Source: Candidatus Hydrogenedentota bacterium (lineage in GTDB: Bacteria; Hydrogenedentota; Hydrogenedentia; Hydrogenedentales; CAITNO01). Taken from it: 44,746 nucleotides of DNA. The stretch is taken from NCBI GenBank assembly GCA_012730045.1, contig JAAYBR010000147.1, forward strand, positions 1-44,746. Direction: 5' to 3'. The position numbers and the translations under genes were made by a program. Under the pieces are notes generated by a model. It did no database searches and was not told the origin of the DNA. It worked only from the letters and a program-made list of their open reading frames with translations. Shown here one piece after another: positions 6,671 through 44,746 of this stretch; positions within the stretch are counted from its first letter, which is position 1; every line of letters begins with the position of its first letter.

Positions 6671-6812
6671 GGGGGGGGAAGACTCCTCCAGACTCCAGAC
6701 TCCGGACTCCAGACTTCAGTGCCAGCATCCCTTTTCCGGCCGGGGGGGGAAGACTCCTCCAGACTCCAGACTCCGGACTCCAGACTTCAGTGCCAGCGTC
6801 CCTTTTCAGGCC
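6671..6812 (+). repeat. Two tandem copies of a 71-bp unit
   Basis: Units at 6671-6741 and 6742-6812 are nearly identical. Each begins with a run of eight G, followed by GAAGACTCCTCCAGACTCCAG and a short ladder of GACTCC/AGACTC repeats, and ends CAGTGCCAGC(A/G)TCCCTTTT. A third poly-G run at 6813 marks the start of a lost third copy. No coding function. Confidence 0.85.
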
Positions 6813-6823
6813 GGGGGGGGGAC

Positions 6824-7090
6824 AGGGCAGTCGCACTAAAACTCCCCTCAAGAAACGCCTGCGGGCGGCATGAACGTCCCCAGGTGATGCGATTCCGTCT
6901 TTGTTGTCCCAACGGGACATCCCCATATAGCGCAGGCAGGCCGCCGCCCCTCCCCGCAGCCCCGGGTCCGCACAGCGCGCAGCGCCTTGGAGTGCGGCAG
7001 CTTGCTGCCGCCGTTCTTCGCGTGGGCTTGCCCGCGCGGGGGCACACGAGAAACGACCGTGTCCGCGCGCTTCCCCAAGGCACACGGGAC
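6824..7090 (+). repeat. Family A dispersed element, left part
   Basis: Begins with AGGGCAGTCGCACTAAAA, one mismatch from the terminal repeat of the complete element at 36512. It then follows the complete copy with few differences through CCCAACGGGACATCC, GCAGCTTGCTGCCGCC, GCCCGCGCGGGGGCACACGA and TTCCCCAAGG (about 7082). Similarity stops about ten bases before the 5' end of the group II intron. The right half is not found after the intron, so this copy is truncated. Confidence 0.75.
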
Positions 7091-7546
7091 GCCTGCGGTA
7101 GTGCGCCCGCGAGCGCATTTTGTCGGAGGGGTGCGAGTCCCCTCCAGGTAAACCTTCTCCGGCCTGTAGCCGACCGTAACTGCGCCGCAGTGATGCGGGG
7201 TGGGGAGCAACGGAAGGCGAACGGCCAGTCCGCAGGATGACGAACTCGATTCGGCGTGATGGACCGGCGAGCCCGCGATCGAAGGGCGAAGCCTGGAACA
7301 CGCCGCGCACGCTGATGGGTAAGGTGTCAAAGCGATGCGCGGGGTCCATGGCGTGGTTGGAGGCGGAATGGCCGGAAGGCAGGATGCGTGAAGCGGGGAG
7401 ACCTGTCCGGGTTGGGCGCGGCGTTCAGGGCGAGTGCCCGAAGCGCCGCACCGGGCAGGAGTCAGAGCGCCCATAGTAGCGATGAAGCGCCGCAACGGGC
7501 GTGGAGCGAAGGGGCGCAGGAAGATGGATTCGGAAAGGACACGCGG

Positions 7547-8887
7547 ATGGAAGAGAAACCGCCGCCAGTGCCCGGGGAAACCGGGGCTAAACAAGGCGGA
7601 GAGGTCCGCGCCCGGTGGGCGTGGACGGAACCGTCCGTGTGGATGGACCGGATGCTGACGGCCCTCGAGACGGGGGTGAAAGGAGGCGTGTGGTTTAGTC
7701 TGATGGACAAGGTGTGGTCCCGCGCGAACCTGGAGTCGGCCTTCGCGAAAGTGCGGTCGAACCGGGGCGGCGCGGGGGTGGACCGGGTGACCGTGGCGAT
7801 GTTCGGGGCGCGCCTGGAGGCGGAGTTGACCCGCCTTCAGGAGCAGCTTCGGACGGGCGCCTACGCGCCGCAGGCGGTCCGGCGGGTGTGGATACCCAAG
7901 GGGGACGGCGCCATGCGCCCTCTGGGCATCCCCACGGTGCGGGACCGGGTGGTGCAGACGGCGTTGCGCAACGTGCTGGAGCCGGTCTTCGAGCGGGAGT
8001 TTGCCGAGCACAGCTACGGCTTCCGTCCGGGCCGGGGCGCGAAAGACGCGCTCCGCCGGGTGGACACCCTGCTCAGGGGCGGCCACCGGCACGTGGTGGA
8101 CGCGGACATCAAGGCGTATTTTGACAGCATCCCCAAGCAGGCCCTCATGGCGCGGGTGCGCGAACGGGTCTCGGACGGGCGGGTTCTGTCCCTGCTGGAG
8201 CAGTATCTGAGCCAGCCGGTGATGGAGCCGCTCAAGACGTGGACGCCGGACGCGGGCACGCCGCAGGGGGCGGTGATCAGCCCTCTGCTGGCCAACCTCT
8301 ACCTCAACCCGCTGGACCACCTGATGGCCCGGTCGGGGGTGGAGATGGTGCGCTACGCGGACGACTTTGTGATGCTGTGCAGGAGCCGGGAGCAGGCGGA
8401 ATCGGCCCTGGAGGCTGTCCGCGCGTGGATGGAAGAGGCGGGACTGACGCTTCATCCGGACAAGACGCGGGTGGTGTCCATGGACGAGGACGGCGGCCAG
8501 TTCGAGTTTCTGGGATACCGGTTTGTGCGGCGCAAAGGCCGTGACTACCGGTTTCCCCGCCCCAAGAGCGAGAAGAAGCTGCGGGACGCCCTGCGTCCTC
8601 TGACCCGTCGAAACAACGGCAGCAGCCTTGAGAAAATCATCGCCGACATCAACCGTCTGCTCCGGGGCTGGTATGAGTACTTCATGCACGCCCACCACAC
8701 CGTGTTTCCGGAAATAGACGGCTGGGTCCGCATGCGCCTGCGCTCCATACTGCGCAAGCGTCACCGCGGCAAAGGCCGGGGCCGGGGACGCGACCACCAG
8801 AGATGGCCAAACGCCTACTTTGCCGGGCATGGGCTGTTCTGCCTGACGACAGCGCATGCACTGGCCGTTCAGTCCCCTACGGGGTAA
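7547..8887 (+). CDS. ltrA: Group II intron reverse transcriptase/maturase
   Basis: A 446-residue intron-encoded protein that acts in splicing (maturase) and in reverse transcription during retrohoming. Reverse transcriptase motifs are all present: RT0/1 region (ANLESAFAKVRSNRGGAGVD), KGDGAMRPLGIPTVRDRVVQ, YGFRPGRGAKDA, DADIKAYFDSI, GTPQGAVISPLLANLYL and the catalytic YADD at 270-273. The thumb/maturase domain follows (GWYEYFMHAHHT). The C-terminus WPNAYFAGHGLFCLTTAH is typical, and no HNH endonuclease is present. The ATG at 7547 was chosen because AAAGG lies about 11 bases upstream and the RT0 region starts soon after; the frame stays open up to 7388 without a ribosome site. No frameshift or stop interrupts it, so the element may still be active. 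Confidence 0.93.
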   Translation: MEEKPPPVPGETGAKQGGEVRARWAWTEPSVWMDRMLTALETGVKGGVWFSLMDKVWSRANLESAFAKVRSNRGGAGVDRVTVAMFGARLEAELTRLQEQLRTGAYAPQAVRRVWIPKGDGAMRPLGIPTVRDRVVQTALRNVLEPVFEREFAEHSYGFRPGRGAKDALRRVDTLLRGGHRHVVDADIKAYFDSIPKQALMARVRERVSDGRVLSLLEQYLSQPVMEPLKTWTPDAGTPQGAVISPLLANLYLNPLDHLMARSGVEMVRYADDFVMLCRSREQAESALEAVRAWMEEAGLTLHPDKTRVVSMDEDGGQFEFLGYRFVRRKGRDYRFPRPKSEKKLRDALRPLTRRNNGSSLEKIIADINRLLRGWYEYFMHAHHTVFPEIDGWVRMRLRSILRKRHRGKGRGRGRDHQRWPNAYFAGHGLFCLTTAHALAVQSPTG

Positions 8888-8898
8888 GACCATCAACC

Positions 8899-8934
8899 GG
8901 AGACCCGTGTGCGGGAGATCCGCACGCACGGTTC
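8899..8934 (+). ncRNA. Group II intron domain V (catalytic hairpin)
   Basis: The hairpin pairs CCGTGTGCGG (5' arm) with CCGCACGCACGG (3' arm, with a bulge), ending GGTTC as in other domain V elements. Where most introns read GAGCCGT, this one reads GACCCGT, so the catalytic A-G-C triad would be A-C-C in the simplest alignment. Confidence 0.75.
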
Positions 8935-9014
8935 GGAGGGAGGGGGGGCCGGACAACCGGCTCTCCCTACCCTATCCTCGGCGGGCGTCAGCGGCACGGC
9001 GGCGCGAAAATGTC

Positions 9015-34230: not shown

Positions 34231-35451
34231 ATGAGCGACAAGGTCAACAAGATCGTGCTGGCGTATTCCGGGGGGCTCGACACCTCGGTCATCCTGAAAT
34301 GGCTCAAGGAGACCTACAAGGCCGAGGTGGTCGCCTACATCGCCGACGTGGGCCAGGGCGAGGAGCTGGAGGAGGCCCGCGTGAAGGCCATGAAGACCGG
34401 CGCCTGCGAGGCCGTGGTCCTCGACCTCAAGGAGGAGTTCACCCGCGACTTCGTGTTCCCCGCCATGCGCGCCAACGCGATCTACGAGGGGTCCTACCTC
34501 CTGGGCACCAGCGTGGCCCGGCCCATCATCGCCAAGGGCCACATCCAGGTCATGCGCCAGACCGGCGGCGACGCCGTCGCCCACGGCGCCACGGGCAAGG
34601 GCAACGACCAGGTCCGCTTCGAGATGACCTGCATGGCCATGGAGCCCGGCGTGAAGATCATCGCGCCCTGGCGCGACCCGCTGTGGACGCTCAACACGCG
34701 CGAGAAGATGGTGGCCTACGCCAAAGAAAACGGCATCCCCGTGCCCGTCACGGCGAAGAAGCCCTACTCCTCCGACCGCAACCTCCTGCACATCTCCTTC
34801 GAGGGCGGCATCCTCGAGGACCCGTGGAGCGCGCCGCCGGACGACATGTTCGTCCTGAGCGTCTCCCCCATGCAGGCCCCCGACACGCCCACCTTCGTCG
34901 AGGTGGACTTCGAGGCCGGCTGGCCCGTCGCCGTGAACGGCGAGCGCCTGAGCCCCGCCGCGCTGCTGGCGAAGCTGAACGCCCTGGGCGGCGCGAACGG
35001 CGTCGGCCGGGTGGACCTGGTTGAGAACCGCTTCGTGGGCATGAAGTCCCGCGGCGTGTACGAGACCCCGGGCGGCACGATCCTCTACGCCGCGCACCGG
35101 GCCGTGGAGTCGCTGACCATGGACCGCGAGGTGATGCTCCAGCGCGACCAGTTGTCTCCCAAGATCGCCCAGCTTGTTTACAACGGTTTCTGGTACTCGC
35201 CGGAAATGGAGGCCCTGACGGCCTTTGTGGACAAGAGCCAGGAGAATGTCACCGGCACCGCGCGCGTCCGCCTGTACAAGGGGAACTGCGACATCGTGGG
35301 ACGCCGCGCCGAGAAGACCCTCTACGACCCCAAGATCAGCACCTTCGAGGAGGACGAGGGGGCCTACAACCAGTCCGACGCCACCGGGTTCATCCGGCTG
35401 AACGCCCTGCGGCTCCGCGTGCGGAACCGCGCCGGGTTCTTTAAGGGGTAA
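34231..35451 (+). CDS. argG: Argininosuccinate synthase
   Basis: A 406-residue argininosuccinate synthase joining citrulline and aspartate with ATP. The ATP-binding P-loop is AYSGGLDTS at 11-19. Other family segments are the [13 protein letters not shown] stretch, [15 protein letters not shown]-type motif (here [15 protein letters not shown]) and the C-terminal KGNCDIVGR. Length is standard. An AAAGGA ribosome site precedes the ATG, 46 bases after argF. argH is not in the window, so the last step of arginine synthesis lies elsewhere. Confidence 0.97.
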
Positions 35452-35770: not shown

Positions 35771-36006
35771 GGCGGCTCACCCGGTTAAATGCGCCGCCAA
35801 TGAAGCGGGCCGGGAGGGCTTTTTTCCCGTCCCGCCGGCCTGGTCTTTGGGTGCCCGCCACAGTTTCTGCCCCGCCCGGGCAGGAGGCATGGCCGGGGCC
35901 TCCCCCCCTGGGAACGCCACTCTCCTGAGTGGCACGTGTTTAGAGCAGTTTAAAATGAACCATGGCCGCGCTTGTATGTTCGGATTCTGCTTCCCCGGAG
36001 GGGAAG

Positions 36007-36199
36007 AATGTGAATAGCCGGAGGTGACCGAAGGGAACCTCCGGACAGAAGTCCGGAGAACCGCAACCCCGAGGGGGTTGAATGTGCGCTTCCGGCGGCC
36101 CGGTCTGCGAACCCGTTCACATTCACCCCCTTGCGGGGTTGGGTTGTTTGGGCCTCGCGCACCGGAGGTTCCCTTCGGTCACCTCCGGCTATTCACATT
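36007..36199 (+). repeat. Inverted-repeat element with 38-bp perfect arms (family C)
   Basis: Arms at 36007-36044 and 36162-36199 are exact complements, each with AATGTGAATAGCCGGAGGTG at the outer end and a smaller internal palindrome around CCGAAGGGAACC. The 117-bp centre has GGTTGAATGTG and TTCACATTCACC, which repeat the outer theme. The stretch before it (35771-36006) has no gene. At 35836-35866 it resembles bases 1-32, and it is otherwise unremarkable. Confidence 0.8.
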
Positions 36200-36341
36200 T
36201 GTCCCCTTCGGGGACGTTTGCCCCGAAAAGCCTCGCGGACGGGCATCGAACCCTCGTCAGCACCATCGGAGGACTCGCGACGTCGGCCACAGTTTGCCTT
36301 TGTCTGCTTTAAAGAGGCCAATCGGGAGAGTGGCGTTCCCA

Positions 36342-36497: not shown

Positions 36498-36988
36498 GAT
36501 GAAAATTACCCGGGGCAATCGCACTAAAATGCCCCTCAAGAAACGCCTGCGGGCGGCATGAACGTCCCCAGGGGATGCGATTCTGTCTTTGTTGTCCCAA
36601 CGGGACATCCGCATATAGCCCAAGCAGGCCGCCGCCCATCCCCACAGCCCCGGGTCCGCACAGCGCGCAGCGCCTTGGAGTGCGGCAGCTTGCTGCCGCC
36701 TTTCTTCGCGTGGGCTTGCCCGCGCGGGGGCACACGAAAAACGACCGTGTCCGCGCGTTTCCCCAAGGCCGGCGCGGCACTCCCCGCCGCAATTTCGGCT
36801 GCCCCGTTGGGGCATGCCTGTTCTGCGCGGGCAACCCAGGGCAGACCTGGCCCTTCGGGCGGCGGCCTGCCCTGGGCTATATTCGGCAACGCTTTCAGCG
36901 TTGAAGAGGTCGGATAAAGGGTAATGAACGCACTCCATCCAGAAAGTGTCCACGGATTTTGGTGCGATTGCCCTGATGAAAATTACCC
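36498..36988 (+). mobile_element. Complete family A element with terminal inverted repeats and 14-bp direct repeats
   Basis: The element proper is 36512-36974 (463 bp). Its left end GGGGCAATCGCACTAAAA (36512-36529) and right end TTTTGGTGCGATTGCCCT (36957-36974) are 18-bp inverted repeats with two mismatches. Directly outside are identical copies of GATGAAAATTACCC (36498-36511 and 36975-36988), which look like a 14-bp target-site duplication; the other two family A copies lack this sequence. The interior has several strong hairpins (CCCAACGGGA, GCGGCAGCTTGCTGCCGC, CCCCGTTGGGGCATG) and no convincing gene, so it would be a non-autonomous (MITE-like) element mobilised in trans. Confidence 0.75.
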
Positions 36989-37017
36989 TTGACAGGACGG
37001 CCGGAAGGTGCTATCAT
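36989..37017 (+). promoter_or_regulatory. Consensus promoter for the giant surface protein
   Basis: TTGACA (36989-36994), 17-base spacer, TATCAT (37012-37017). This is the best promoter match in the window. The -35 box touches the right-hand direct repeat of the family A element, so the insertion lies immediately upstream of the core promoter. Confidence 0.65.
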
Positions 37018-37023
37018 GACATT

Positions 37024-37255
37024 AGTGACGCAGTTTCACGGCGGTGTCTTGTGCGCGGACGGGATATTCTCCCCGGTCGCGCGGGTTTTTGCGTCTCCCC
37101 CGGCGGGTATGCCGGGATACCGCCTGGTTGCAGGGTTTTTTGCCCGTCGGGCCCCGCCTGCGGGCTGGTAATATTTTGGTGACACTTGGGACAGGCAGGG
37201 CCCGCCAGGGCGCAACAAGGGACATGTGGTCCAAACTTCAAGAAGGAATCCTTCC
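37024..37255 (+). other. Long structured leader before the surface protein gene
   Basis: About 230 bases of predicted 5' leader. It holds a hairpin-like CCCCGGTCGCGCGGG followed by TTTTT (37063-37086), a bulged stem GGCGGGTAT/ATACCGCC (37102-37124) and a T6 run at 37136-37141. The two T runs after GC-rich sequence look like possible attenuators. I match it to no known riboswitch class. Confidence 0.35.
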
Positions 37256-40200
37256 ATGACAGAAAGCACTTGTCGGGTCAGAAAGGGGGCCGTTGCGTTT
37301 GCGGTCCTGTGGGCGCTCGCCCTCGCGGTCGCCGTGGGGGGCGGAACGGCGGACGCCGCCATCAATGTGGTGTCTGTCGGACACAAAGAGGCAACCGATA
37401 ATACAGACGACTGGCAGGATTTATTTAACACTGACAACACGGGATCTCGGAACACCATCCCGGCGGGAACAGAGCTGCTTGTTATTGCTGTTTGCGATAT
37501 GCGCGACCAGCACTGCAATGCGGTGTCCATAAGGCAGAATGGTTCCGCGACATGGATTGGGCTGACCCGGATGGGAGCGACGGCGGGCACGGGCAACGAG
37601 CGCACCTCGCTGTTCTATCTCAACAACCCAGCAGCCATTCCTCAGGGCCAAATTCAGTTCAGGGCTCGGTTTGCCGGGAATGTCCGTGAAAGAAACATCG
37701 GCATGGCGGCACTGACCGGGGTGGCAGCCAACACAGCCACCCGTATAGGCCCTTATCACGTCTATTCATCTGGTGGCAACGAGTACGGAAACCCGATTGC
37801 GCTCACGCTGACCGCAGCGCAACTGCCCAAGAACTGGGCGTTCGTTACTGCTAGAACAGCGAATGCAGATCAGAGCCCCCCAGATGGCACCCGCACAAAC
37901 CTGACGCTGTTCAGCGGTATTTACATGGGTTTCCCTCAAGGAGGAACAATTATATCGGGTCGTCGCCGTAGTTCCGCGCGCATGGACTTGACCAGAGCCA
38001 CGGATTCTGCTGATCCCCGCATTATGAACTATGCGGCCGGCGCCAACATGGCAGGATTGGGGGTGGCCATCCGCCCAAGGTACACGATCAACGCGACTTC
38101 GGGTGGCAACGGAAGCGCGTCCGGCGGGGGGCAATATGACCACGGGCTGACAGCGACGGTGATCGCAACCCCGAACGCAGGGTATCGGTTCTTGAACTGG
38201 ACCGTTGGGGGGGCTCCGGTTTCCACCAACGCCACATATGCCTTCACAGCGACGGATGACCGTTCGCTGGTGGCGAACTTCATCCAGACCTGGACGTTGA
38301 CGTACACGCCGGGCGCGGGCGGCACCATCAGCGGCATATCGCCGCAGACGGTGGACAACGGCGGGAGCGGCACGCCGGTGACGGCGGTTCCGAGCGCGGG
38401 GTACCGCTTCGGCAGTTGGAGCGACGGCGTGCTGACGGCGGCGCGCACCGACACGAATGTGACGGGGAACATCACCGTCACGGCGAACTTCATCAAGACC
38501 TGGACGCTGACCTACACGCCGGGCGCGGGTGGCTCCATCTCGGGCACGACGCCGCAGACCGTGGACAACGGCGGTAGCGGCACGCCGGTGACGGCGGTTG
38601 CGAGCGCGGGGTACCGCTTCGGCAGCTGGAGCGACGGCGTGATGACGGCGGCGCGCACGGACACGAATGTGACGGCGAACGTCGCGGTCACGGCGAACTT
38701 CATCAAGACGTGGACGCTGACCTATACGCCGGGCGCGGGTGGCACCGTCAGCGGCACATCGCCGCAGACCGTGGACAACGGCGCGAACGGCGCGCCGGTG
38801 ACGGCGGTCCCGAACACGGGGTACCACTTCGTTGACTGGAGCGACGGCGTGCTGACGGCGGCGCGCACGGACACAAATGTGACGGCGAATATCACCGCGA
38901 CGGCGAACTTCGCCATCAACACGTACACGATCACGGCGTCGGCGGGCGTCGGCGGCAGCATCACGCCCTCGGGCGCGGTGCCGGTCAACCACGGCTCGGA
39001 CCAGGCTTTCACCATCGCGGCGAATGCGGGCTACCGGATTCTGGAGGTGCTGGTGAACGGCGTGGCCCAGGGCCCGGTGTCCGACTACACCTTCACCAAC
39101 GTGACGGGGAACGGCAACACCATCGCGGCGTCGTTCCAGAAGACGTGGACCGTGTCGGTGTCCGTCAATCCGGCGGGGGCCGGCAGCGTTACCGGCGGCG
39201 GCGTCTATGACGACGGCGCGACGGCCGTGCTGGACCCGACGGCAAACGCGGGCTACGGCTTTGACAGTTGGAGCGGCGACGCGTCGGGCTCCGACGACCC
39301 GCTCTCTCTGCTGGTGGACGGTGACAAGTCGGTGACGGCGAACTTCATCTCCCTGGACAAGACGATCACGGCGTCTGCGGGCGTCGGCGGCACCATCACG
39401 CCTTCGGGCGTGGTGGTGGTGACCTACGGCGACGACCAGACCTTTGGCATCGCGGCGGACCCGGGCTACCGGATCCTGGACGTGCTGGTGGACGGTTCGA
39501 GCGTCGGCGCGGTGGCGAACTACACCTTCACCAACGTGACGGTGGATCACACCATTGCGGCGTCGTTCCAGAAGGTGTGGACCGTGTCGGTGTCGGCCGA
39601 CCCGGCGGCGGGCGGCAGCATCACCGGCGGCGGCGTCTATAATGCCGGCGCGACGGCCATCCTGGACCCGACGGCGAATGCCGGCTTCGGCTTCACCGGC
39701 TGGAGCGGCGACGCGTCCGGCACGGACGACCCGCTCTCCCTGCTGGTGGACGGCGACAAGTCGGTGACGGCGAACTTCGCGGACATCGAGAACCCCGTGG
39801 CGGTCTGCCAGGACATCGCGGTGAACCTGGCGAGCCCGACCATCCTGGCGGCGGCCATTGACGGCGGCAGCACGGACAACTCCGGCGGCATCGCCTTGAT
39901 GACCATTGACGGCGCGGCGGACAAGACCTTCACCTGCGCGGACCTCGCGGCGAGCCCGGTGACGGTGACCCTGGTGGTCTTCGACACGGCCGGCAACAGC
40001 GACACCTGCACGGCAAGCGTGACGGTGACGGACGCGGATCCGGACGCGGGCGCCACGGCGCTGCTGTCTGTGACCCCCGACACCGGCGTGTCGGACAGCG
40101 ACTTCATCACCAACGCGGACGACATCGTGCTTCAGGGCACGGTCGGCTCGGCCCTCCCGGGCACGAAGTTGAACGTGGAGGTGAGTACTGCCTCCGGCGG

Positions 40201-42298
40201 CCCGTACGGTCCCCTCGCCAGCGGCCTGCCCACGTTGGGCGGCGACTTCGCGGTGCCGGTCAACGGTGTGGCCGCGGCGACCTACTACCTGGTGTTCCAG
40301 ACCGAGACCGCCTGCGGCACGCAGGGCGCCTGGTCGTCCGAGTACACGGTGATCGTGGACCGGACCGCGCCGACGGCGGCCTGCCCGGCCCCGGTCGAGG
40401 TGGCCGCGGACACGGCCTGCCTGGGCGTGATTCCGGACCTGACGGGCGATGTAACCGCCACGGACAACGTGGCCGGCACCCTCGCCGTGACCCAGGACCC
40501 GGTCGCGGGCACCCCGGTCGGCCTGGGTGACACCACGGTGACCATGACGGTGACCGATGTGGCGGGCAACACGAACACCTGCGCCGCGACCGTGACGGTC
40601 GTGGACGCGCCCCCGGCGGCCCCGGCGCTGGTCCAGATGCTTCCGGACACGGGCGTGGCCGGCGACTTCATCACCAGCGCCTCGGACTTCCAGTTCCAGG
40701 GCACGGTCGGATCGGCCGAGCCCGGCACGCTGCTGAACATCCGCGTTCATGGGCTTTCGGGCCTGCTGCCGGACACCTTCATGGCCCAGTGGGAGAACAT
40801 CCCGACGGCGGGCGGCCTCTTCGCCGTGCCGCTGACGGACATTGACCCGGCCACGTACTACCTGGTCTTCCAGACCGTGAACAACTGCGGCACCCCGAGC
40901 GCGTGGTCCTCAGAGCGCATCGTGATCGTGGACCAGACGCCGCCGACGATCACGGCCTGCGCGGCGGACCGCGAAGTCGCCGCCGACGGCACCTGCCAGG
41001 GCGCGATTCCGGACCTGACGGGCGACGTGGTTGCGGCGGACAACGTGCCCGGCACGCTGGGCGTGACGCAGAGCCCGCCTGCGGGCACGGTCGTTGCGAT
41101 GGGTGACCACACGGTGACGCTCACCGTGACCGACCTGGCCGGCAACACAAACACCTGCGACACCATCGTGACGGTCGCCGACCTGACCGGCCCGACCTTC
41201 TCGGTCTGCGCGCCCGACCGCGCGCTGACCCCCGGCCCCGGCTGCACGGGCACGGTGCCCGACATGCTGTCCGAGGTGACCGCGATTGATGACCCGTGCG
41301 GCGGCACGGTGGTCGGCATCGTCCAGGATCCGATCGCGGGCACGTCCTTCACCGGTGCGGTCACGGTGGTCTTCACGGCCACGGACAACTCCGGCAACAC
41401 GGGCACCTGCGAGACCCTCGTGAGCTTGGTGGACACCGAGGCCCCGGTCGCGGCCTGCCAGGACTTCACCGTGGACGCGGCCGACGGCATCGTGACGGGT
41501 GCCGACATTGACGGCGGCAGCACGGACAACTGCGTGGTGTTCGACCGTCTGATTGACGGCGCGGCATCGGTGACCTACACCTGCGCCGACCTGGGCGACC
41601 ACACGGTCACCCTGACGGTGCTGGACGCCAACGGCAACAGCGACACCTGCTCCGCCACCGTCACGGTGGTGGACGGGACCGCCCCGGAGATCACGCTCAC
41701 CGGCGACGCGGCGGTGGTGCTGGACAACGGCGAAACGTACACCGAGCTGAGTGCCACGGCGCTTGACGGGTGCGACGGCGACCTGACCGGTGCCCTGGTC
41801 ATCGGCGGCGACACGGTCAATGACCGCGCCCCCGGCGTCTACACGGTGACCTACACCGTGTCCGACGCCGCGGGCAACGAGGCGGTCGCCACCCGCACCG
41901 TCACCGTCCAGCGCGTGGCCTGCGCCCTCGTGGTCAACGCCGTCGCGACGGACATTGACGCCTCCCCGGGCGACACGGTTGTTCTGGAAGTCACCCTCGG
42001 CGCCGCCAACTGCGCCATTGGCGACATCCACTACGACTGGAAGAAGGACGACGGCAGCAAGGCCCTCGTCTCCCTGCCCAGTGCGGCCGATGACCCGGTC
42101 CTGACCCTCACGGACGTGACCCCGGCCGACTCCGGCGTCTACGTGTGCGAGGTCTCCGACGACATGTACGCCGTGCAGTCGCCCGAGATCAACGTCACCG
42201 TGGCGTCAGGCGTGCCGGCCGCGGGCGGCCTGGGCCTGGCCCTGGCGGCTGTGGCCGCGGCCCTGACCGGCGTCGGCGCCCTGCGCCGCCGCAAGTAG
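37256..42298 (+). CDS. Giant secreted surface protein with B-repeats, HYR/Ig-like modules and CTERM-like tail
   Basis: A 1680-residue protein: signal peptide about 1-36; an unrecognised N-terminal domain (about 37-275); eight InlB-like B-repeats (about 276-843), marked by GYRFxxWSDG and TVTANF; then alternating HYR-like modules (VTMTVTDVAGNTNTC type) and two long Ig-like modules (about 845-1480); a DUF5011-like module (about 1477-1550); an Ig domain (about 1555-1648); and a C-terminal tail VPAAGG, hydrophobic helix and RRRK (1653-1680). The tail resembles CTERM sorting signals (PEP-, IPTL- or Myxo-CTERM), which are cut by exosortase-like enzymes. AAGGAA precedes the ATG. Probable role: cell-surface adhesion or matrix. 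No catalytic domain seen. The first 700 bases have markedly lower GC in third positions than the rest. Confidence 0.88.
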   Translation: MTESTCRVRKGAVAFAVLWALALAVAVGGGTADAAINVVSVGHKEATDNTDDWQDLFNTDNTGSRNTIPAGTELLVIAVCDMRDQHCNAVSIRQNGSATWIGLTRMGATAGTGNERTSLFYLNNPAAIPQGQIQFRARFAGNVRERNIGMAALTGVAANTATRIGPYHVYSSGGNEYGNPIALTLTAAQLPKNWAFVTARTANADQSPPDGTRTNLTLFSGIYMGFPQGGTIISGRRRSSARMDLTRATDSADPRIMNYAAGANMAGLGVAIRPRYTINATSGGNGSASGGGQYDHGLTATVIATPNAGYRFLNWTVGGAPVSTNATYAFTATDDRSLVANFIQTWTLTYTPGAGGTISGISPQTVDNGGSGTPVTAVPSAGYRFGSWSDGVLTAARTDTNVTGNITVTANFIKTWTLTYTPGAGGSISGTTPQTVDNGGSGTPVTAVASAGYRFGSWSDGVMTAARTDTNVTANVAVTANFIKTWTLTYTPGAGGTVSGTSPQTVDNGANGAPVTAVPNTGYHFVDWSDGVLTAARTDTNVTANITATANFAINTYTITASAGVGGSITPSGAVPVNHGSDQAFTIAANAGYRILEVLVNGVAQGPVSDYTFTNVTGNGNTIAASFQKTWTVSVSVNPAGAGSVTGGGVYDDGATAVLDPTANAGYGFDSWSGDASGSDDPLSLLVDGDKSVTANFISLDKTITASAGVGGTITPSGVVVVTYGDDQTFGIAADPGYRILDVLVDGSSVGAVANYTFTNVTVDHTIAASFQKVWTVSVSADPAAGGSITGGGVYNAGATAILDPTANAGFGFTGWSGDASGTDDPLSLLVDGDKSVTANFADIENPVAVCQDIAVNLASPTILAAAIDGGSTDNSGGIALMTIDGAADKTFTCADLAASPVTVTLVVFDTAGNSDTCTASVTVTDADPDAGATALLSVTPDTGVSDSDFITNADDIVLQGTVGSALPGTKLNVEVSTASGGPYGPLASGLPTLGGDFAVPVNGVAAATYYLVFQTETACGTQGAWSSEYTVIVDRTAPTAACPAPVEVAADTACLGVIPDLTGDVTATDNVAGTLAVTQDPVAGTPVGLGDTTVTMTVTDVAGNTNTCAATVTVVDAPPAAPALVQMLPDTGVAGDFITSASDFQFQGTVGSAEPGTLLNIRVHGLSGLLPDTFMAQWENIPTAGGLFAVPLTDIDPATYYLVFQTVNNCGTPSAWSSERIVIVDQTPPTITACAADREVAADGTCQGAIPDLTGDVVAADNVPGTLGVTQSPPAGTVVAMGDHTVTLTVTDLAGNTNTCDTIVTVADLTGPTFSVCAPDRALTPGPGCTGTVPDMLSEVTAIDDPCGGTVVGIVQDPIAGTSFTGAVTVVFTATDNSGNTGTCETLVSLVDTEAPVAACQDFTVDAADGIVTGADIDGGSTDNCVVFDRLIDGAASVTYTCADLGDHTVTLTVLDANGNSDTCSATVTVVDGTAPEITLTGDAAVVLDNGETYTELSATALDGCDGDLTGALVIGGDTVNDRAPGVYTVTYTVSDAAGNEAVATRTVTVQRVACALVVNAVATDIDASPGDTVVLEVTLGAANCAIGDIHYDWKKDDGSKALVSLPSAADDPVLTLTDVTPADSGVYVCEVSDDMYAVQSPEINVTVASGVPAAGGLGLALAAVAAALTGVGALRRRK

Positions 42299-44352: not shown

Positions 44353-44487
44353 ATTGCGGGCGTTCTCGCCGACTTACTTCATCAGCAGCGCCGCGAAGCC
44401 ATCTCGTGCCCGCCGTAGCCCTGCCTGCACGAGATTGCTTCACGCGCTCCGCGCGTTCGCAATGACGGGGGGGGCGCCTCGCCGCTG

Positions 44488-44632
44488 GGAGGCCCACGCC
44501 AGGCACGTCACTGCGAGGAGACCGCCGCCTGACCTGTCGCTGCGAGGAGGCCCACGTCAGGCACGTCACTGCGAGGAGGCCCACGCCAGGCACGTCACTG
44601 CGAGGAGGCCCACGTCAGGCACGTCATTGCGA
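44488..44632 (+). repeat. Five tandem copies of a 29-bp unit
   Basis: Units start at 44488, 44517, 44546, 44575 and 44604. The consensus starts GGAGGCCCACG and ends CGTCACTGCGA; unit 2 is divergent. The end motif CGTCA(C/T)TGCGAG is the core of family D elements, and a decayed family D end (ACGAGATTGC ... CGCAATGACG) lies just before at 44428-44466. The stretch 44255-44746 has no gene. Confidence 0.85.
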
Positions 44633-44746
44633 GCCCCTGACCGCCGTGAGGCGGGAATTCGCATAAGAAAGTTGGCTCCCTGCATGATGATGTCGCGGGT
44701 CCCACAGAGTGGCCGGAGCTCGAATGGTGTCAGCGTACCCGTTCGC

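Follow-up and report, generated by a model that had tools for sequence, protein, structure and literature searches.

An ISAs1-family MITE beside a promoter in a Hydrogenedentota bacterium and its likely preference for sites just upstream of -35 hexamers

A 465-bp segment of the window (the whole stretch of DNA analysed, 44,746 nucleotides, which is contig C147 of a 4.46-Mb, 155-contig draft genome of a Candidatus Hydrogenedentota bacterium) is an ISAs1-family MITE. This identification is made because the same ends (CAGGGCAATCGCA...) flank an ISAs1-family insertion sequence (IS) of ~1.33 kb in other Hydrogenedentota. The presence of a promoter beside the element turns out to be a rule for the family and is not incidental. 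Taken as a whole, the evidence makes it likely that the element is a MITE mobilised by an ISAs1 transposase and inserted preferentially just upstream of the -35 hexamer of a sigma70-type promoter.

An earlier note on this DNA had described a 463-bp segment with 18-bp terminal inverted repeats (TIRs). The TIRs are indeed 18 bp long (GGGCAATCGCACTAAAAT / ATTTTGGTGCGATTGCCC, with one mismatch), but the boundaries are now set by comparison with the ends of the family, which gives the length of 465 bp (Table 1). Family ends read 5'-CAGGGCAATCG...CGATTGCCCTG-3', or in another form of the consensus 5'-CAGGGCAATCGCACTAAAAT. The window contains exactly two occurrences of GATGAAAATTACCC, 36498-36511 and 36975-36988, which bracket the element. 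These identical 14-bp flanks had been read as a target duplication of that length. The identity holds, but the outer G and C of the repeat are the same as the element's own terminal bases, and the repeat without element bases is ATGAAAATTACC, a duplication of 12 bp; in the family it is 10 bp. A profile search of the window for a transposase gave no match to PF01609 or NF033564. The Acido-Lenti-1 RNA (RF01687) was considered as a functional core of the element and rejected, as it scores 30.5 bits at 36835-36902 against an Rfam gathering threshold of 37 and has no match in an Rfam search of the other MITE copies. Just left of the element, and separate from it, lies a 53-nt inverted repeat (35992-36214) to which palindromic repeats at other places in a sister genome are related.

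Table 1. The MITE and associated features in the window, with flanking repeats of other copies in the same genome
Feature	Position	Strand	Basis
ISAs1-family MITE, no transposase gene	36511..36975		TIRs and copy-specific direct repeats; 59 own-genome matches; two-ended copies
Left terminal inverted repeat CGGGGCAATCGCACTAAAAT	36511..36530	+	end-pattern matches
Right terminal inverted repeat, CAGGGCAATCGCACCAAAAT read inward	36956..36975	-	end-pattern matches
Left target duplication ATGAAAATTACC	36499..36510		copy comparison
Right target duplication ATGAAAATTACC	36976..36987		copy comparison
Sigma70-like promoter: TTGACA 36989-36994, 17 nt, TATCAT 37012-37017	36989..37017	+	matrix score 17.6
Truncated MITE copy (query 2-258), then group II intron	6823..7081	+	sequence match
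Right part of another MITE copy, cut by contig start	23..217	+	sequence match
Flanking repeat of copy L002: CTCCCCGGCT			
Flanking repeat of copy L009: TCCCCGGAAG			
Flanking repeat of copy L022: CAACTGGGCG			
Flanking repeat of copy L027: CCGCCACCGG			
Flanking repeat of copy L007: GCAGTGGAAT			

The element has 59 matches in its own genome, where its copies number in the tens. Because the end sequence is found there at 68 sites with three or fewer mismatches, compared with 2 sites for a reversed control pattern, and because the direct repeats are copy-specific, the TIR pattern is more than chance. Two-ended copies are ~430-495 bp long, and each has different flanking repeats, in agreement with the earlier observation that the repeat in the window is not common to other copies. 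With CAGGG...CCCTG as the ends of the element, most two-ended copies in this genome have a 10-bp repeat. It reaches 11-12 bp in the window copy, L005 and L114, and has become degenerate in L003, L025 and L056. Contigs end inside MITE copies in many cases, which is expected because repeats break assemblies. Directly upstream of the truncated copy in the window is a 71-bp tandem duplication (6671-6812), and just after the end of this copy at 7081 starts a group II intron (7100-8977, with D1-D4 at 7184-7386, the RT ORF at 7388-8887 and D5/6 at 8900-8975), which may have inserted near or into it. Near the contig end, at 44473-44633, are tandem 29-nt direct repeats (CACGTCACTGCGAGGAGGCCCACG...).

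The 100-bp flanks of twelve copies were joined, with one duplication kept, and used to search the sister species (G001) for empty sites. Four of the twelve (L009, L027, L005 and L025) align there through the junction without interruption, at 83-90% identity, and therefore these copies are insertions. The -35/-10-like sequences that adjoin the junction of L005 and L025 occur in the uninserted loci as well. Around the window copy there is no synteny with this species: the left side of the locus (35000-35447) is conserved at 96%, and the right side was not found. These empty sites show past movement of the MITEs, and their current mobility in the window's genome is putative.

The end sequence is present in 29 of the 68 genomes of the order, and the phylum-wide search used these same 68 genomes. 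In the relatives G035, G060 and G026 (the last being Candidatus Hydrogenedentota bacterium USDE_maxbin.110, JAKQEQ010000192.1), MITE-type ends enclose an IS of 1327-1361 bp that carries a 375-421-aa transposase. These transposases match NF033564 at E values of 1e-123 to 1e-126 (411-420 bits, with a cut-off of 70) and also PF13808 and PF01609 (DDE_Tnp_1_assoc and DDE_Tnp_1), and the IS copy in G026 has a perfect 10-bp duplication. Among 80 ISAs1 loci surveyed from many phyla, 34 had recognisable ends and duplications, and the target duplication was exactly 10 bp in 30 of these. The earlier proposal that the window holds a non-autonomous TIR element moved by transposition is thus borne out by copy-specific duplications, by empty sites and by a TIR-sharing transposase in relatives. 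It had suggested looking for copies with different flanking duplications, for an orthologous locus lacking the insert and for a transposase between the same terminal repeats; these have been found in the window's own genome, at four other copies in the sister genome and in three relatives, respectively.

A search of the draft assembly of the window's genome for an intact ISAs1 transposase gave no match to PF01609, and NF033564 detected only a decayed relic (L298, G000:C42:3889-4026, 46 positions). In the sister genome, the NF033564 search detected no ISAs1 transposase, not even a relic. The MITEs of these two genomes may therefore be orphaned, allowing for gaps in the drafts. We infer that mobilisation in trans probably occurred in an ancestor of the genus. 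One other locus, L173 in the sister genome (G001:C438:1903-3191), was considered as an autonomous partner and rejected: it has no duplication, and its ORFs look IS630-type-like by eye, so that it is apparently an IS630-type transposase nested in a MITE.

As the earlier note had pointed out, the right-hand repeat in the window abuts the TTGACA of a promoter (Table 1), which lies upstream of a 1690-aa ORF (37226-42298). The insertion may, as that note suggested, alter expression of this downstream gene. The -35 starts 13 nt outside the element, and the promoter score is among the strongest of 67 flanks. Promoters were scored with a hand-written E. coli sigma70 matrix and are sequence matches, not mapped starts. 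Family ends in 29 genomes, mostly draft MAGs, supplied 230 nonredundant flanks for this analysis. A strong outward promoter with its -35 starting no more than 15 nt from the element is present in 52 of these flanks, whereas inward promoters number 0 (p = 1.7e-17). The next 15-nt bins hold 12 and then about 4 flanks, and -35 starts peak at 9-13 nt from the element end. The score threshold of 10 and the 15-nt bin were picked after a first list from the window's own genome; the other genomes and the autonomous IS serve as the independent tests.

Similar results are obtained without the matrix. The motif TTGAC lies 0-24 nt from the element in 27 of 225 flanks; windows further out have 3-7, and the opposite strand has 4. 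The hexamers most enriched at 24-44 nt include TATACT, TATAAT, TATGCT and TATCAT. With the matrix, a promoter adjoins 16 of the 55 ends in the window's own genome, versus 1.1% of positions lying 30-250 nt upstream of genes called with a crude codon-usage script (p = 1.4e-18). The share of elements involved is larger than these flank fractions because usually only one end can face a promoter. One genome, G026, has no promoter within 15 nt in any of its 19 flanks.

In the mechanism that we favour, an ISAs1-family transposase acting in trans would recognise the CAGGGCAATCGCA ends of the MITE and insert it by a staggered cut, which would duplicate about 10 bp. The insertion complex would favour sites that immediately precede the -35 hexamer in sigma70-type promoters, and would probably find them either by touching RNA polymerase/sigma bound at the promoter or by reading the -35 region directly. 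Insertion would leave the element abutting the promoter, with the -35 and -10 intact. We infer that promoter targeting of this kind is the cause of the positional bias.

Autonomous ISAs1 elements from other phyla show a related placement, sharper than in the MITEs and shifted in its spacing. On a Dehalococcoidia chromosome, one IS has several copies with a -35-like TTG at 18 (+/-1) nt from one end, and so have several Ktedonobacteria copies. In the 84 flanks of 42 IS whose duplications were verified, a TTG begins at position 18 in 14 cases, compared with 1.7 per position elsewhere (p = 4e-9). Among IS with CAGGGYRATCGC ends, a TTG lies 16-19 nt from one end or both in 16 of 22, versus 1 of 22 for a control window; this range was picked after the duplication survey had been seen, and the count reuses those IS. 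Within the range, the most frequent start is exactly 18. The TTG peak is weak or absent in ISAs1 members with other ends, and ISAs1 copies on plasmids have mostly clean 10-bp duplications and few clear promoter-adjacent sites. The difference in spacing between Hydrogenedentota MITEs (mode 9-13) and other IS (18) may reflect transposase clades.

Rather than recognising a promoter, the transposase could prefer a short motif (TTGAC, for example) that lies at a constant offset from its cut; promoters would then be hit only because they contain the motif, with RNA polymerase uninvolved. In some IS flanks no obvious -10 follows the TTG at 16-19 nt, as would suit such a preference; in about half, an obvious -10 follows at the proper distance. 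However, -10 hexamers are also enriched at 24-44 nt in the flanks of the Hydrogenedentota MITEs, and two Bacteroidia ISAs1 copies (L393 and L394) seem, by eye, to lie beside Bacteroidota-type promoters (TTTG ... TANNTTTG). We regard a preference for sequence alone as doubtful. If the flanks of these Bacteroidia copies are truly of the Bacteroidota type, the host's own promoter type would be followed.

Insertion of the same ISAs1 MITE could also be random, with a pile-up just outside promoters arising because a copy survives only where it damages neither a gene nor a promoter. The copies are mostly intergenic, and those landing within genes or promoters would be lost; moreover, enrichment in promoter regions has been reported for IS in general (PMC9208149). 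Survival would nevertheless be expected to spread copies over the upstream region, yet the flanks fall off sharply beyond the first 15 nt, upstream intergenic positions give a null of only 1.1%, and the -35 recurs at 18 (+/-1) nt in other phyla. We therefore consider survival bias an unlikely explanation, and target selection at promoters is favoured because sharp spacing recurs in unrelated hosts. A casposon-like or IS4-type element with a long target duplication, to which the 14 identical bases flanking the window copy might have pointed, is rejected as extremely improbable given the 10-bp repeats at other copies and the ISAs1 transposase encoded by the autonomous element with the same TIRs.

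The terminal repeats (CAGGGCAATCGCA...) of known ISAs1-family IS (NF033564; ISPa60, ISKpn31, ISAs12, ISAzs15 and ISRm21) are identical to those of the MITE. These IS also share the 10-bp duplication with the MITE family and, in many members, the placement upstream of -35-like boxes. The window element differs from these IS in being only 465 bp long and lacking a transposase gene, and the -35 lies closer to it, at 13 nt, than in ISAs1 IS from other phyla, where 18 nt is typical. Bacterial MITEs mobilised by other IS (for example, MITEPye1/IS1182 and MITEAba12) are likewise small, non-coding, TIR-bounded, intergenic and multicopy, with the ends of an autonomous IS, but unlike for the ISAs1 MITE, a fixed promoter-adjacent placement was not found described for them. 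In the open-access literature searched, a scope that leaves subscription papers and ISfinder text mostly outside, we found no description of an ISAs1-derived MITE and no report of promoter targeting by ISAs1, which is weak evidence of novelty.

ISAjo2 of the IS1202 family is a simple IS that inserts at a fixed distance (5 bp) from dif, possibly via contact between its transposase and a host protein (PMC10132070). Its insertion at a fixed distance from the site of a host protein resembles what is proposed here, although its transposase and ends are unrelated to those of ISAs1 and its target is XerC/dif rather than promoters. The yeast elements Ty1 and Ty3 use the transcription machinery to integrate at a set distance upstream of where transcription starts. 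These are eukaryotic retroelements at Pol III genes, and their likeness to the ISAs1 MITE is one of analogy only.

We lean towards the broader conclusion that ISAs1-family transposons in many phyla are promoter-targeting, recognising either the promoter-RNA polymerase complex or the -35 region and inserting upstream of it at a fixed distance, and that their MITEs have spread promoter-abutting elements through genomes. If true, this insertion by ISAs1 elements would be the bacterial counterpart of integration directed to promoters in yeast. It would also offer a simple, testable case of a one-protein transposase that reads promoter DNA or the machinery of transcription. Landing at a set distance upstream of the -35 would explain how this IS family multiplies with little damage to the host, as well as how it can rewire regulation. 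For the window, the junction between element and promoter would be an instance of the family rule and no coincidence.
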